Source: Thermomicrobiales bacterium
GTDB lineage: Bacteria; Chloroflexota; Chloroflexia; Thermomicrobiales; UBA6265
Reading direction: 5' to 3'
Length of the DNA: 64,000 nt
Assembly: GCA_019637585.1 (NCBI GenBank)
Contig: JAHBVL010000014.1
Location: 1-64,000 of the forward strand
The notes beneath the pieces are model-generated. The model made no database searches. It was not told the DNA's origin and worked only from the letters and a program-made list of their open reading frames with translations. Shown piece by piece: positions 1 through 3,948 of the stretch. Position numbers and translations under genes: made by a program. Every line of letters starts with the position of its first letter. The stretch's first letter is position 1.

Positions 1-45
1 GCTGTAGCCGGAATTATTCATTAGAGGCTTCCTCTGCCGTTTTCT

Positions 46-213
46 GCAGTCGCTGACCCCCGTGTCTGCTCTCTCAGCGGGCGCTACGCATCCATTGGCG
101 GCGGCTTTTCGCGTCACGTGCCGATACGGGGCGGCGGTTGTTTGCGCATGAGGACGGTGGCGAGCTGTTACAGCTTGTCCCAGACGAGTGCAGACACGGG
201 GGTCTGCAGCTAC
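46..213. repeat. MITE-like dispersed repeat, copy 1
   Basis: A segment bounded by inverted arms. The left arm (about 46-69) contains GACCCCCGTGTCTGC and the right arm (190-213) reads GCAGACACGGGGGTCTGC followed by AGCTAC. The same right arm and a matching left arm bound a second element at 52281-52428. The interior differs between the copies and has no credible gene. I infer a short non-autonomous or REP-type element; no transposase for it is visible here. Confidence 0.6.
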
Positions 214-292
214 ATGGCGATGAGTTCGCTGTCAAAGGTCGTGTTTGTCGCCCAACGAATAATCCGGATCCCCCAACTGTGCCTCACGGAAA

Positions 293-352
293 AACCCGGC
301 CCAGTGCAGCTCTGTGCCGGTGCATCAGCGACCGCCGGCGCGGGGCCGGGTT
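293..352. other. Long-arm inverted repeat in upstream non-coding DNA
   Basis: AACCCGGCCC (293-302) is perfectly complementary to GGGCCGGGTT (343-352), with 40 nt between. It could be the stem of a transcribed structure or the terminator of an upstream gene, but no T-tract follows and I match it to no RNA family. The rest of positions 1-392 holds no convincing gene; overlapping short frames there have no start signals or recognisable protein. Confidence 0.3.
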
Positions 353-370
353 CTACATCATGAGAGAGCC

Positions 371-383
371 GGGGGGGGGGGGG
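371..383. repeat. 13-bp poly-G tract
   Basis: A run of 13 G lies about 10 bp upstream of the -35 box of the DAHP synthase leader promoter. Such tracts are slippage-prone and hard to sequence, so the true length may differ. Its position just outside the promoter means length changes could alter upstream DNA geometry, but nothing shows phase variation. Confidence 0.6.
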
Positions 384-392
384 CTATATCGG

Positions 393-421
393 TTGACATC
401 GTGACGCCCGGCGCTTACTGT
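393..421 (+). promoter_or_regulatory. Sigma-70-type promoter of the DAHP synthase leader
   Basis: A perfect -35 box TTGACA (393-398), a 17-bp spacer and a -10 box TACTGT (416-421), which keeps the three most conserved positions (T1, A2, T6). Seven bases later comes the ATG of the leader ORF at 429. The predicted transcription start therefore falls on or next to that A, which makes the transcript leaderless. Confidence 0.8.
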
Positions 422-428
422 TCCGGCT

Positions 429-557
429 ATGCGAAATCTGGATCATCTCACCAGCCTGAAATCACCCGAAGTCGCCGCCAGTGGCGCGAACTGGTGGTTT
501 TACTTTTACGGCAACCCCCCGGCTCTGCTGGCGGGGCGAGAGGTGCTGACGCGCTAA
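429..557 (+). CDS. Aromatic amino-acid leader peptide (attenuator)
   Basis: A 42-codon ORF between a strong promoter and an intrinsic terminator, upstream of DAHP synthase. Residues 22-27 are Trp-Trp-Phe-Tyr-Phe-Tyr (codons 492-509), so all three aromatic end products are read in tandem. This is the hallmark of ribosome-mediated attenuation. There is no Shine-Dalgarno; the -10 box ends 7 nt before the ATG, so initiation is probably leaderless. GAGGTG (540-545), just upstream of the UAA at 555, can pair with CACCTC (599-604) of the terminator stem. A ribosome stalled at the aromatic codons would leave 540-545 free to form the antiterminator. A ribosome at the stop codon would cover it and allow termination. 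The sequence signals are direct; the switching model is inference. Confidence 0.85.
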   Translation: MRNLDHLTSLKSPEVAASGANWWFYFYGNPPALLAGREVLTR

Positions 558-585
558 CGCTCCAGAGACAGCAAAGCAGTGGGGG

Positions 586-612
586 AACCGAGGTCGAACA
601 CCTCGGTTTTTT
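586..612 (+). terminator. Intrinsic terminator/attenuator before DAHP synthase
   Basis: CCGAGGT (588-594) pairs perfectly with ACCTCGG (600-606) around a 5-nt loop, followed at once by six T (607-612). It lies 31 nt after the leader-peptide stop and 38 nt before the DAHP synthase start, so it acts as a conditional terminator rather than an end-of-gene terminator. Its 3' half (599-604) can alternatively pair with 540-545 inside the leader ORF. Confidence 0.9.
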
Positions 613-649
613 GTTTGTCCGGAATCAGTAGGAAGCAAGGAGCAGGGTC

Positions 650-1690
650 ATGATCATCACATTCGAGTCTGGCGCGGATACCACGTCGATCGACCGGTTA
701 CGTGTCGAAGCGGACCGGCTGGGCATCGGCAACCGGATGCTGCGCTTCGACGATGGCTCGGTCATTGCCGGGTTCGACAGAACGCTGCCTCCCGACGCGC
801 TGACTGGTCTCGCCGCCAGTCAGATACTGCCCACCCACCGGCCCTACATGCTGGCCAGCAGCGAGCACCGGGACCGCTCGGTTGTGTGGGTCGGGGATGT
901 CGCGTTCGGCGCGGATATGCCGGTGCTGATCGCCGGTCCCTGTGTAGTCGAGAGCACCGAGCAGATGATCGAGGCAGCCATTGCGGTCAAGGCGGCCGGC
1001 GCCGTCATGCTGCGGGGAGGAGCATTCAAGCCGCGCACTTCGCCCTACTCCTTCCAGGGTCATGGTGAAACGGCGCTGCAGATGCTCGTCGCGGCTCGCG
1101 ATGCGACCGGGTTGCCCTTCGTGACCGAGGTACTAGAACCCGACCAGGTCGATCTCGTCGCCGCGCACGCTGACATGTTGCAGATCGGCGCGCGCAACAT
1201 GGCCAACACGCCGCTCCTGAAGCGGGCGGCGCGTTCCGGAAAACCGATTCTGCTCAAGCGTGGATTCTCGGCGACGATCGACGAGTGGCTGATGGCGGCG
1301 GAGTACGTTCTTTCGGAAGGGAATCCCAACCTGGTGCTTTGCGAACGGGGTATCCGCGGATTCGATCCGGCGCTGCGGTTCAATCTCGACCTGAACGCGG
1401 TGCCGCTGGCCATGCAGCTCTCTCACCTGCCGGTGATCGTCGATCCGAGTCATGGGACGGGCGTGAGGTCGCTGGTGCAGCCGATGGCGTTGGCCGGTAT
1501 CGCCGCCGGGGCCAACGGACTGATCGTCGAAGCACAGCCTGATCCCGATGCGGCGATGTGCGACGGATACCAGACCATTTCCACGGACGAACTGGCGCAG
1601 ATCAACCGGCGCGTGCAACGACTGGCCGCCGCCCTGAGCGACGAGGTCGATGTCGCGACTCCGGACGCCCGCGAACTGGTTCGCGCCTGA
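650..1690 (+). CDS. aroF: 3-deoxy-7-phosphoheptulonate synthase (DAHP synthase, type I-beta)
   Basis: Condenses phosphoenolpyruvate and erythrose 4-phosphate to DAHP, the first step of the shikimate pathway, in the cytoplasm. It has 346 residues. An N-terminal ferredoxin-like regulatory extension (about 1-65), typical of the Thermotoga-type I-beta class, precedes the TIM-barrel domain. Metal and substrate motifs include AGPCVVES (residue 95 on; Cys98 is the expected metal ligand), a KPRTSPYSFQG-like loop and DPSHGTG near the C-terminus. The start is set by AAGGAG 8 nt upstream of the ATG. It is the only gene after the aromatic leader peptide and attenuator, so transcription should respond to charged tRNA-Trp/Phe/Tyr, with feedback through the N-terminal domain also possible. 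Confidence 0.95.
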   Translation: MIITFESGADTTSIDRLRVEADRLGIGNRMLRFDDGSVIAGFDRTLPPDALTGLAASQILPTHRPYMLASSEHRDRSVVWVGDVAFGADMPVLIAGPCVVESTEQMIEAAIAVKAAGAVMLRGGAFKPRTSPYSFQGHGETALQMLVAARDATGLPFVTEVLEPDQVDLVAAHADMLQIGARNMANTPLLKRAARSGKPILLKRGFSATIDEWLMAAEYVLSEGNPNLVLCERGIRGFDPALRFNLDLNAVPLAMQLSHLPVIVDPSHGTGVRSLVQPMALAGIAAGANGLIVEAQPDPDAAMCDGYQTISTDELAQINRRVQRLAAALSDEVDVATPDARELVRA

Positions 1691-1804
1691 CCGGGCCTCA
1701 TACACTAAGTGACAGTCAAGGATGACCGGGTCGCCGGTTGGACCTGCGATCCGTGGCGTCGCTGCAGTGGACGCGTCTTTGCCGGAGCTCCTAGAAAAAT
1801 GCTA

Positions 1805-1908
1805 GTCATCCTGAACGAAGTGAAGGACCTCTCCGTCGTTTCCTGCCACTGCCGTCGTCTCCCTGGAGACTGCCGCGGCGGGAGATCCTTCGCTACGCTC
1901 AGGATGAC
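1805..1908. repeat. Interspersed palindromic repeat (GTCATCCTGA...CAGGATGAC)
   Basis: A 104-bp element with about 27-nt imperfect terminal inverted repeats: GTCATCCTGAACGAAG at the left, and CTACGCTCAGGATGAC at the right. I recognise the 'GTCATCCTGAGCGAAGCGAAGGA' type as a common intergenic repeat in many bacterial genomes. It fills part of the 314-bp gap between the DAHP synthase gene and selB. The remainder of that gap shows no gene, and no tRNA-Sec. Confidence 0.7.
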
Positions 1909-2004
1909 GGTGCTTTTTCATGCCCCGCTGGTGCCGGATCCCGGCATGTTGGTTCAGGATGATGGTCGATTCGCTGCCGGTGGAGTCGAACAGGACGACG
2001 CAAT

Positions 2005-3948
2005 TTGACCGCATCTCGATCAGAAGCGACTGAACAGCAGCGCCCCGTTGTCATCGGGACCGCTGGGCATGTCGACCATGGCAAATCGACGCTGGTCCGG
2101 GCGCTGACCGGTATCGACCCCGACCGGCTGGCCGAGGAAAAGGCCCGGTCGATGACGATCGATCTCGGTTTTGCCTGGTTCGATCTGCCGGGTGGCCGCA
2201 GCGCCAGCATTGTCGATGTGCCCGGGCACGAACACTTCATCAAGAACATGCTCGCCGGTATCGGCGGCATCGATGTCGCCCTGCTGGTGGTAGCGGCCGA
2301 CGAAGGACCGATGCCGCAGACGCGAGAGCATCTGGCCATCATCGATCTGTTGGGCATCGACCATGGGGTCGTCGCACTGACCAAAACCGATCTGTCGGAA
2401 CCAGATCTGGTCGACTACGTCGCGGAAGAAATCGCTGAGCTCCTGGCTGCCACGTCCATGGCCGGAGCAACGATCGTGCCGGTGTCGGCATCGAGCGGTG
2501 CGGGGCTGCCTGACCTCGCCTCGGCGCTCGATGCAGCGGCGGCGAGGTCGGGCCAAACCTCGTCTGGACCAGCCCGGCTGCCAATCGACCGGGTCTTTTC
2601 AGTCGCGGGATTCGGCACGGTGGTCACGGGCACGATGCTCGGTGGGACATTTCAGACGGGAGACGAGCTCGCGGTTCTGCCGGGTGGATCGAACGTCCGC
2701 GTCCGGGGATTGCAGTCGCACAACCAGCACGTCGAGCGGGTGTCCGGCGGGATGCGGGCCGCTATCAACATCTCGGGGCCGGGCGACCAGAGGGTTCGCC
2801 GTGGTGATGTCCTGACTCGTTCTGGCGCACTCGTCTCCACCCATCGCATCGATGTCCACCTGAGGCTTCTGGCGGACGCTCCGGCGACGCTGACCCAGAA
2901 CGCCCGGGTCGATCTCTTCACCGGCGCGACCGAGTCGGCCGCGCAGTTAACGCTACTCGAATCGGAAGCATTGGAACCGGGCCAAACCCAATTGGTGCAG
3001 ATGCGCCTGGCCAGTCCGGTGGCTGTCGCTGCGGGGGACCGCTTCATCGTCCGGCAGGCGTCGCCCAGCGCCACGATCGGCGGCGGCATCGTGCTCGACC
3101 CGGCGCCGCGACGCCACCGGCGGTTCGATCCGGCCGTGCTGCGCCGTCTCCAGGGGTTGGTCAACGGCGACCCGCTGGCCATGGCTCGCAATGCGATCGG
3201 GGAACGACCGGTCCGCCGCGAGCAGATCGAGGCCGATCTTGCGGCAACCGTCGACCCATCCGACGGCGCAAGCGCGATTCAGCAGTTGCTGGACACGGGT
3301 GAGATCACCGGTCTCGACAGGACCGCCGAGCACTCGGCTCGATGGTTGATTTCCACCGACGCCTGGAATCGTTTCGAACGGGCAGCTGCCGACGCGATCG
3401 ACCAGTTCCATCTGACGCATCCGCTCAGGCCAGGGATGCCGCTGGAAGAGCTGCGCGCGTCGTTCAAGCTGGATCTCCGCCAGTTCGATGTCATGATCGG
3501 GGAGTTGGAGCGGAGCGGAGTGTTGGTCCGCGACGGAGCGTTGTTGAGATCGCCCTCCTTCGTTCTGCTATTCGATGAAACGACCCAGCGCCGGGTCGAT
3601 CGCTATCTCGGTGCGCTCAGGGAACGTCCCGCGGATCCTCCCCCTCCCCAGGAATTCGACATCGACGCCGAAGTGCTTGCCGCTCTCGAACACCAGGGAT
3701 CAGTCGTCAAACTCTCCGACGCGATGGCGTTCGACAGCGACGCTTATACCAACCTGGCGACGCTCACCCTCGATTTTCTGGCGAAACATGGCACGATATC
3801 GCTGGCTGAGTTCCGGGATCTGGCCGGGACGACCAGGAAGTATGCCCAGGCCTTGCTGGAAGACTTCGACCGCCGTCGTCTGACGCGCCGGGTGGGGGAT
3901 GTCCGGCACCGGGGAGCGGCCAATCTGCCGAAGCGTGAGGAGCAGTAG
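2005..3948 (+). CDS. selB: Selenocysteine-specific elongation factor SelB
   Basis: A translational GTPase that delivers Sec-tRNA(Sec) to UGA codons marked by a SECIS element. It has 647 residues, the usual SelB length. The G domain carries GHVDHGKS (from residue 21), a 'DRLAEEKARSMTIDLGFAW' effector region, DVPGHEHF and an ALTKTD-type guanine motif. EF-Tu-like beta domains follow, then C-terminal winged-helix repeats ending in a TRKYAQALLEDFD helix typical of the last SelB winged helix. The start is TTG, with a weak AGGA 9 nt upstream; no better start exists before the P-loop. In the switch region the usual Arg-Gly is Arg-Ser. The PIG-L gene starts 1 nt after the stop. selA, selD and selC are not in the window. 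Confidence 0.9.
   Translation: MTASRSEATEQQRPVVIGTAGHVDHGKSTLVRALTGIDPDRLAEEKARSMTIDLGFAWFDLPGGRSASIVDVPGHEHFIKNMLAGIGGIDVALLVVAADEGPMPQTREHLAIIDLLGIDHGVVALTKTDLSEPDLVDYVAEEIAELLAATSMAGATIVPVSASSGAGLPDLASALDAAAARSGQTSSGPARLPIDRVFSVAGFGTVVTGTMLGGTFQTGDELAVLPGGSNVRVRGLQSHNQHVERVSGGMRAAINISGPGDQRVRRGDVLTRSGALVSTHRIDVHLRLLADAPATLTQNARVDLFTGATESAAQLTLLESEALEPGQTQLVQMRLASPVAVAAGDRFIVRQASPSATIGGGIVLDPAPRRHRRFDPAVLRRLQGLVNGDPLAMARNAIGERPVRREQIEADLAATVDPSDGASAIQQLLDTGEITGLDRTAEHSARWLISTDAWNRFERAAADAIDQFHLTHPLRPGMPLEELRASFKLDLRQFDVMIGELERSGVLVRDGALLRSPSFVLLFDETTQRRVDRYLGALRERPADPPPPQEFDIDAEVLAALEHQGSVVKLSDAMAFDSDAYTNLATLTLDFLAKHGTISLAEFRDLAGTTRKYAQALLEDFDRRRLTRRVGDVRHRGAANLPKREEQ

Follow-up and report, generated by a model that had tools for sequence, protein, structure and literature searches.

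A candidate ribosome-mediated attenuator with Trp, Phe and Tyr codons ahead of a DAHP synthase gene in Thermomicrobiales

The DAHP synthase gene near the end of a Thermomicrobiales contig is preceded by a leader that is probably a ribosome-mediated transcription attenuator sensing Trp, Phe and Tyr, with a helix that we term P1 serving as the antiterminator. Comparison among relatives brings out a run of aromatic codons, a kept spacing between promoter and ATG, an intrinsic terminator, and covariation within P1; from the letters we infer stalling on each of the three amino acids and hence sensing of all three, the antiterminator role of P1, and the manner in which the terminator would be blocked. 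A first-pass annotation of the window (the whole 64,000-nt stretch analyzed) had already read this region as an attenuator. An attenuator ahead of DAHP synthase, with a run containing all three aromatics that is conserved in the order, is upheld here, and the RNA pairing proposed for it is replaced.

Results

The locus and its features

The window is the left end of a 64,931-base contig, in a genome of 3.94 Mb comprising 33 contigs. The identity of the putatively regulated gene comes from curated models, NF006421 giving 400.6 bits (cut-off 335) and TIGR01361 giving 357.1 bits (cut-off 267.75). The features of the element are as follows.

393–421, forward strand: promoter, TTGACA (393–398), 17 nt, TACTGT (416–421); from the sequence, with the layout kept in the order.
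429–557, forward strand: leader peptide ORF of 42 aa, MRNLDHLTSLKSPEVAASGANWWFYFYGNPPALLAGREVLTR, with its stop codon at 555–557, predicted to be leaderless or to have a very short 5' leader; from the sequence and the leader profile.
492–509, forward strand: candidate stall run, TGG TGG TTT TAC TTT TAC (Trp Trp Phe Tyr Phe Tyr), codons 22–27; from the sequence.
515–536, forward strand: 5' arm of P1, over the PPALLAG codons, with CCCCC (515–519), C520, GCT (522–524), TGCTG (526–530) and GGGG (533–536); from folding, and from covariation in relatives.
560–585, forward strand: 3' arm of P1, with CTCC (560–563), CAGCA (569–573), AGC (575–577), G579 and GGGGG (581–585), abutting the terminator; from folding.
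586–608, forward strand: intrinsic terminator stem of 9 bp, AACCGAGGT (586–594) and ACCTCGGTT (600–608), loop CGAAC; from the sequence and folding.
609–616, forward strand: U-rich tract after the terminator, TTTTGTTT; from the sequence.
637–642, forward strand: Shine-Dalgarno-like AAGGAG of the DAHP synthase gene; from the sequence.
650–1690, forward strand: 3-deoxy-7-phosphoheptulonate (DAHP) synthase, 346 aa; from NF006421, TIGR01361 and PF00793.

The surroundings contain a gene for a SelB-like selenocysteine-specific elongation factor (2005–3948, forward strand) that adjoins the DAHP synthase gene. Between the two (1794–1919) lies a 38-nt inverted repeat (76%) of the type CATCCTGAACGAAG...CTTCGCTACGCTCAGGATGAC, probably an interspersed repeat. 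A 29-nt inverted repeat (83%) is found at 45–214, close to the contig end, and 13 G in a row (371–383) directly precede the promoter.

As in known ribosome-mediated attenuators, a short leader ORF carries a cluster of codons for the products of the pathway. The 42-codon ORF and its six consecutive aromatic codons, both of which had been noted from the letters before, can be read directly; such a six-codon run occurs only once in the six frames of the 64-kb window, and 60 Markov-1 simulations produced no example. An intrinsic terminator lies between this ORF and the DAHP synthase gene, and a script found one in 74 of the 78 leaders tried. It had earlier been placed at 588–612; its stem and U-tract are real, and its borders have been corrected slightly, the stem occupying 586–608. 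Terminator function requires pairing only. Its letters are nearly constant, GCAGAGG-loop-CCTCTGC, in families f2, f17, f24, f27, f33, f36, f40, f42 and f43.

Conservation of the leader in the order

A DAHP synthase query was searched in the 61 genomes of the nearest relatives and in 400 genomes of the phylum, and the DNA upstream of each match was then read. In the order this yielded 48 readable loci, taken as the best-matching DAHP synthase copy, from 47 genomes (G410 has two). Left out were two loci at contig edges (L055 and L073), a fragment in G428, and genomes having only a more distant copy (e.g., G403, G411, G412, G419, G427 and G440) or no match. An aromatic-run leader was present at all 48 readable loci, with 4–8 aromatic residues per 9 codons, shortly before the stop codon. 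A comparison of related upstream regions had been called for in the first-pass annotation, and conservation across the order strengthens the original observation. No leader was flagged before four further DAHP synthase copies (L002, L070, L071 and L076), which include the second copy of the window's own genome.

With this conservation, the idea that an unconstrained small ORF merely happens to precede the plain terminator of an upstream transcript retains almost no probability. In its favor, a ready-made consensus scan found no promoter-like site, and the five terminator-like sites that it reported omit 586–608. It is essentially refuted by the 48/48 conserved loci, by the absence of the run from the simulations, and by the P1 covariation described below.

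A leader profile, built from 24 leader peptides with the window's own among the 24 rows, matched 42 of the 61 genomes, and 24 of the 28 that were of good quality. The best match lay directly 5' of the DAHP synthase match in 41 of these 42 genomes and at a contig end in the remaining one, while two genomes had one additional weak match each (E 0.006–0.008). The window's own genome gave a single match (E 4.5e-13), to the leader that is itself a row of the profile. Among the 19 genomes missed by the profile, the leader was present by eye at L034, L035, L037, L039 and L050.

Within genera, codon differences over the 8 codons before Pro-Pro comprised 34 that were synonymous, 10 aromatic-to-aromatic, 13 aromatic-to-other and 23 non-aromatic; these counts are pairwise and not independent, and the 34 synonymous differences include non-aromatic codons. 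Random changes at aromatic codons would be expected to go from aromatic to other in 80% of cases. Where an aromatic codon was involved, the differences observed were mostly synonymous or aromatic-to-aromatic.

Trp, Phe and Tyr all occur in or beside the run in 47 of the 48 order leaders, the exception being L039, which has no Trp. This exception, and more distant leaders in which the 12 codons before P1 contain no Phe (L022, L026 and L031) or no Trp (L024), would fit an attenuator that in practice responds to just one or two of the three. So would the Corynebacterium glutamicum aroR leader before aroF, which has the run Phe-Tyr-Phe and is reported to respond to limitation of Phe, not of Tyr (PMC11802643). 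Retention of all three amino acids in the other order leaders, despite changes in their order and number, argues against this reading; we regard it as unlikely, although it is the strongest of the competing explanations.

A predicted leaderless or near-leaderless start

The promoter TTGACA-17-TACTGT, reported previously for this window, is read directly, and its –10 element agrees with the consensus at three of six positions. The leader ATG (429–431) begins 7 nt past this element. Among relatives, a promoter composed of TTGACA or TTGACT, a 17- or 18-nt spacer and TAnnnT ends 6–10 nt before an in-frame ATG in 42 of 46 order leaders, the exceptions being L003, L053, L054 and L057; the remaining two of the 48 sit at locus edges, where the promoter is unreadable. 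Given this spacing, the transcription start is predicted to coincide with the ATG or to precede it by a few bases, which would leave no space for a Shine-Dalgarno sequence. The earlier suggestion of a start lacking a 5' leader can thus be extended to a predicted leaderless or near-leaderless start conserved order-wide. In an in silico survey, leaderless genes were found in 4 of 12 Chloroflexi genomes, at a mean of 4.7% of genes (PMC3160421).

A conserved helix between the codons after the run and the segment before the terminator

The pairing put forward at first was of GAGGTG (540–545) with CACCTC (599–604) in the terminator stem. These letters are present, but this is not the conserved pairing: over 44 leaders, the mean energy was –7.82 kcal/mol with own partners vs –7.81 kcal/mol with swapped ones, 2349 of 5000 permutations being as good, so that the compensatory changes looked for at these positions do not appear. 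In the window itself, the own pairing gave –7.9 kcal/mol vs a mean of –11.67 with the arms of other species.

P1 is formed by the codons that directly follow the run (CCN CCG GCG TTG CTG, Pro-Pro-Ala-Leu-Leu) and the stretch bordering the terminator on its 5' side. Over 61 unique leaders, own arms gave a mean of –33.2 kcal/mol vs –24.6 for swapped arms, with none of 5000 permutations as good, and 26 of the 61 had at most two better P1 partners among the other 60. This set mixes the two builds distinguished below; near-identical leaders had been merged (74 to 61), and L027, L108, L111 and L131, with no terminator found by the script, were omitted. Among 33 distinct arm pairs with Pro-Pro, the wobble position of the first Pro codon forms C-G in 14, T-A in 11 and G-C in 5; this analysis omits the 25 of 74 leaders without Pro-Pro codons by the script's test. 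The register used there was picked for maximal pairing, which biases the observed value upward (235 of 264 cells, vs at most 225 for shuffles); the permutation test is free of such a choice.

P1 is also kept where the peptide varies. CCG GCG is changed to CCG ACT in L057 and L031, and the 3' partners change along with it; L024 keeps P1 with quite different letters, its peptide there reading STA-stop; L035, a single draft-genome sequence, is frame-shifted to read FTPRLCWRG with the P1 RNA retained; and L050 reads MEARLV, again with P1. Selection is therefore taken to act on the RNA, not the peptide, in this segment. These same leaders speak against a nascent-chain arrest peptide (TnaC- or polyproline-like) in which the PPALL tail would sense a free amino acid. 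In favor of such a peptide, Pro-Pro after the run is common, and invariant in the 24 leaders chosen for alignment. It is however missing from L132 and L133, as from the 25 leaders failing the script's test, and the synonymous positions of Pro codons covary with their P1 partners; we consider an arrest peptide very improbable.

Across relatives there is thus a conserved alternative pairing 3' of the putative stall codons, as in an attenuator, and in the window this pairing is weak. P1 there has 18 pairs with several bulges and an energy of –26.9 kcal/mol, with 20 of 500 shuffles as good, and it is no better than with the 3' arms of other species (z 0.11; 35 of 60 others better). Within the window itself, no part of the case is weaker than P1.

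In 42 of 48 order leaders, the distance from the 3' end of P1 to the terminator is between –4 and +2 nt; 15 are at 0 nt, as in the window, and 12 at –3. Seven of these 12 share GCG between the two hairpins, and in most of the others the overlap arises from pairs with the U tract. In the minimum-energy folds among those listed, P1 and the terminator form together, except in L010, with a terminator probability of 0.84–1.0. P1 and the terminator therefore have no whole arm in common through which one would exclude the other, and since the hairpins fold together, thermodynamics alone gives no exclusion.

Such compatibility would also suit a P1 that acted as a pause or protector hairpin, holding RNA polymerase for the ribosome or favoring termination, with a ribosome stalled on the start of P1 causing read-through via another structure. 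Hairpin pausing belongs to the classical trp attenuator. In several leaders, moreover, the first Tyr or Phe codon is 0–2 codons before P1, so that stalling at that codon would place the ribosome over the opening pairs of P1. No selection on the order of the Trp, Phe and Tyr codons relative to P1 was seen, 992 of 2000 permutations reaching the observed mean (45 leaders). Against a pause or protector role, the other pairings examined with terminator arms do not stand out in the order: leader tail with terminator 3' arm gives the 2349/5000 above, and the post-run segment with the terminator 5' arm gives 15/5000 over 61 leaders of both builds, the best ranks being mostly outside the order. Own-class leaders of other families pair these two segments in an antiterminator-like manner, and C. 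glutamicum ilvBNC is modeled with adjacent antiterminator and terminator hairpins. We judge this reading unlikely, at perhaps a chance in four, and retain P1 as the probable antiterminator.

Leaders beyond the order and a second build

Outside the order, the loci of the DAHP synthase search showed the leader only in L022, L024, L026, L027 and L031, with none in, e.g., L013–L021. A loose filter applied to 40 further loci of the phylum flagged 26, of which 25 were kept as such leaders; the remaining one, L146, probably belongs to a longer frame and was set aside by eye. Other families of the window's own class (L107–L119 except L115) have an aromatic-run leader before a chorismate mutase gene, which is followed by DAHP synthase in the 9 loci displayed; the chorismate mutase call comes from PF07736 in L118 (161 bits) and a similar opening motif in 9/9 loci displayed.

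In seven unique leaders of these own-class families, it is the 5' arm of the terminator itself that the post-run codons pair with, the own partner ranking 0, 2, 0, 6, 4, 1 and 4 of 60. In this second build, a predicted antiterminator in the corresponding part of the leader overlaps the terminator arm. Finding two builds there, one overlapping the terminator and one abutting it, favors P1 as antiterminator. In L139 (family f21), a TTTTTT stretch succeeds the post-run helix, and a second terminator-like hairpin lies downstream.

A wider set comprised 80 DAHP synthase loci kept from at least 593. The loose filter flagged 28 of them, obvious non-leaders included, in records that include Geomonas, Geobacter, several Planctomycetes and Ktedonobacter racemifer. 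Thirteen were folded, and some of these folds pair with the terminator arm, as judged by eye. Aromatic-run leader ORFs before DAHP synthase were noted in L151, L153, L155, L157, L166, L172, L187, L188, L202 and L206, whose record titles name Geomonas, Geobacter, Planctomycetaceae, Calditrichota, Dictyobacter, Ktedonobacter and others. We tentatively suggest a bacteria-wide class of attenuators at the entry to the pathway, each with a single leader for Trp, Phe and Tyr at once, Chloroflexota having two builds (overlapping arm, and abutting with blocking of the terminator base) on leaderless mRNAs; this could well be so, but falls a little short of what we would favor.

As to T-boxes or other Rfam families, positions 1–3000 of the window, searched at E values up to 5, gave a sole match far below its gathering score, and 20 related loci, searched at E values up to 0.5, likewise gave nothing above the gathering score.

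Discussion

We propose that RNA polymerase would start no more than a few bases from the leader ATG, as the promoter spacing suggests, and that a ribosome would load on the 5' end. With charged Trp-, Phe- and Tyr-tRNA plentiful, it would cross the run and the PPALL codons and hold P1 open, and the terminator at 586–608 would halt transcription. If any one of the three were scarce, the ribosome would stall in the run, leaving the downstream codons free to pair with 560–585 as P1; the base of the terminator would then be kept from closing, giving read-through. Because P1 ends exactly where the terminator begins, we infer that it would stop the terminator base from closing; at an overlap of 0 nt, as in the window, blocking of the terminator is purely conjectural.

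The E. coli his attenuator works by the same scheme of stalling on codons for the pathway product, and the E. coli trp, pheA and his attenuators each read one amino acid, start translation at a Shine-Dalgarno sequence, and have a terminator and antiterminator that share a whole arm. The present leader would resemble these three in stalling on product codons, with a terminator before the structural gene, and would differ from them in each of the other respects. For trp and pheA, ribosome stalling on codons for the pathway product, with a terminator before the structural gene, is described in PMC11802643.

The combination described here had been thought to be without a named counterpart, but precedents exist in C. 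glutamicum aroR/aroF, in C. glutamicum ilvBNC and in Acholeplasma aroF. A putative aroF leader peptide is listed for C. glutamicum (PMC4046766). The aroR/aroF system, which we compare by description only, likewise combines attenuation of a DAHP synthase gene with a leader peptide containing aromatic codons; it belongs to another phylum and has the shorter run given above, whereas the leaders here have 4–8 aromatic codons for Trp, Phe and Tyr.

For ilvBNC, computation and mutational analysis are reported to support a terminator and an antiterminator whose bases adjoin and have GCC in common (PMC11857589), and the title of Morbach 2000, as cited in PMC4046766, describes its leader peptide as lacking a ribosome binding site. 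A leader peptide of that kind, predicted here, and adjoining antiterminator and terminator bases that share a trinucleotide are its points of resemblance to the present element; the GCG-sharing order leaders (seven of the 12 of 48 with a 3-nt overlap) show this arrangement. It differs in sensing branched-chain amino acids and in having an anti-antiterminator hairpin as well, and the window has no shared nucleotide.

The Acholeplasma uORFC-13-1 motif, a uORF and terminator ahead of aroF, is similar in these elements and is thought to sense Phe; it differs in having a ribosome binding site, is described with at least one Phe codon, and is given for Acholeplasma and environmental DNA only (PMC8632094). 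Attenuation of aroF was hypothesized for E. coli in 1980, and is listed for Shewanella as sensing of tyrosyl-tRNA (PMC8632094, PMC2659441). These cases, again compared by description, share attenuation of a DAHP synthase gene and differ in concerning Tyr only, as a hypothesis.

Leader-peptide attenuation before DAHP synthase is known already, and the present element looks like a widespread variant of it, with Trp, Phe and Tyr together and a predicted near-leaderless start. The open-access texts consulted, as far as the portions available extend, mention neither a Trp-Phe-Tyr leader before DAHP synthase nor this element in Chloroflexota; Neshat 2014, on the aroR leader, and Lopatovskaya 2010, a comparative study, lie outside that scope, and an earlier mention is possible.

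With aromatic-run leaders before DAHP synthase in several phyla, and no Rfam family matching above threshold at positions 1–3000 of the window or at 20 related loci, a description of the element would improve annotation in groups where genetics is scarce. The two builds would make it possible to test the distance from which a helix can still stop an intrinsic terminator. If the proposal is correct, the committed step of aromatic biosynthesis would be set by the scarcest of its three products, through one ribosome.
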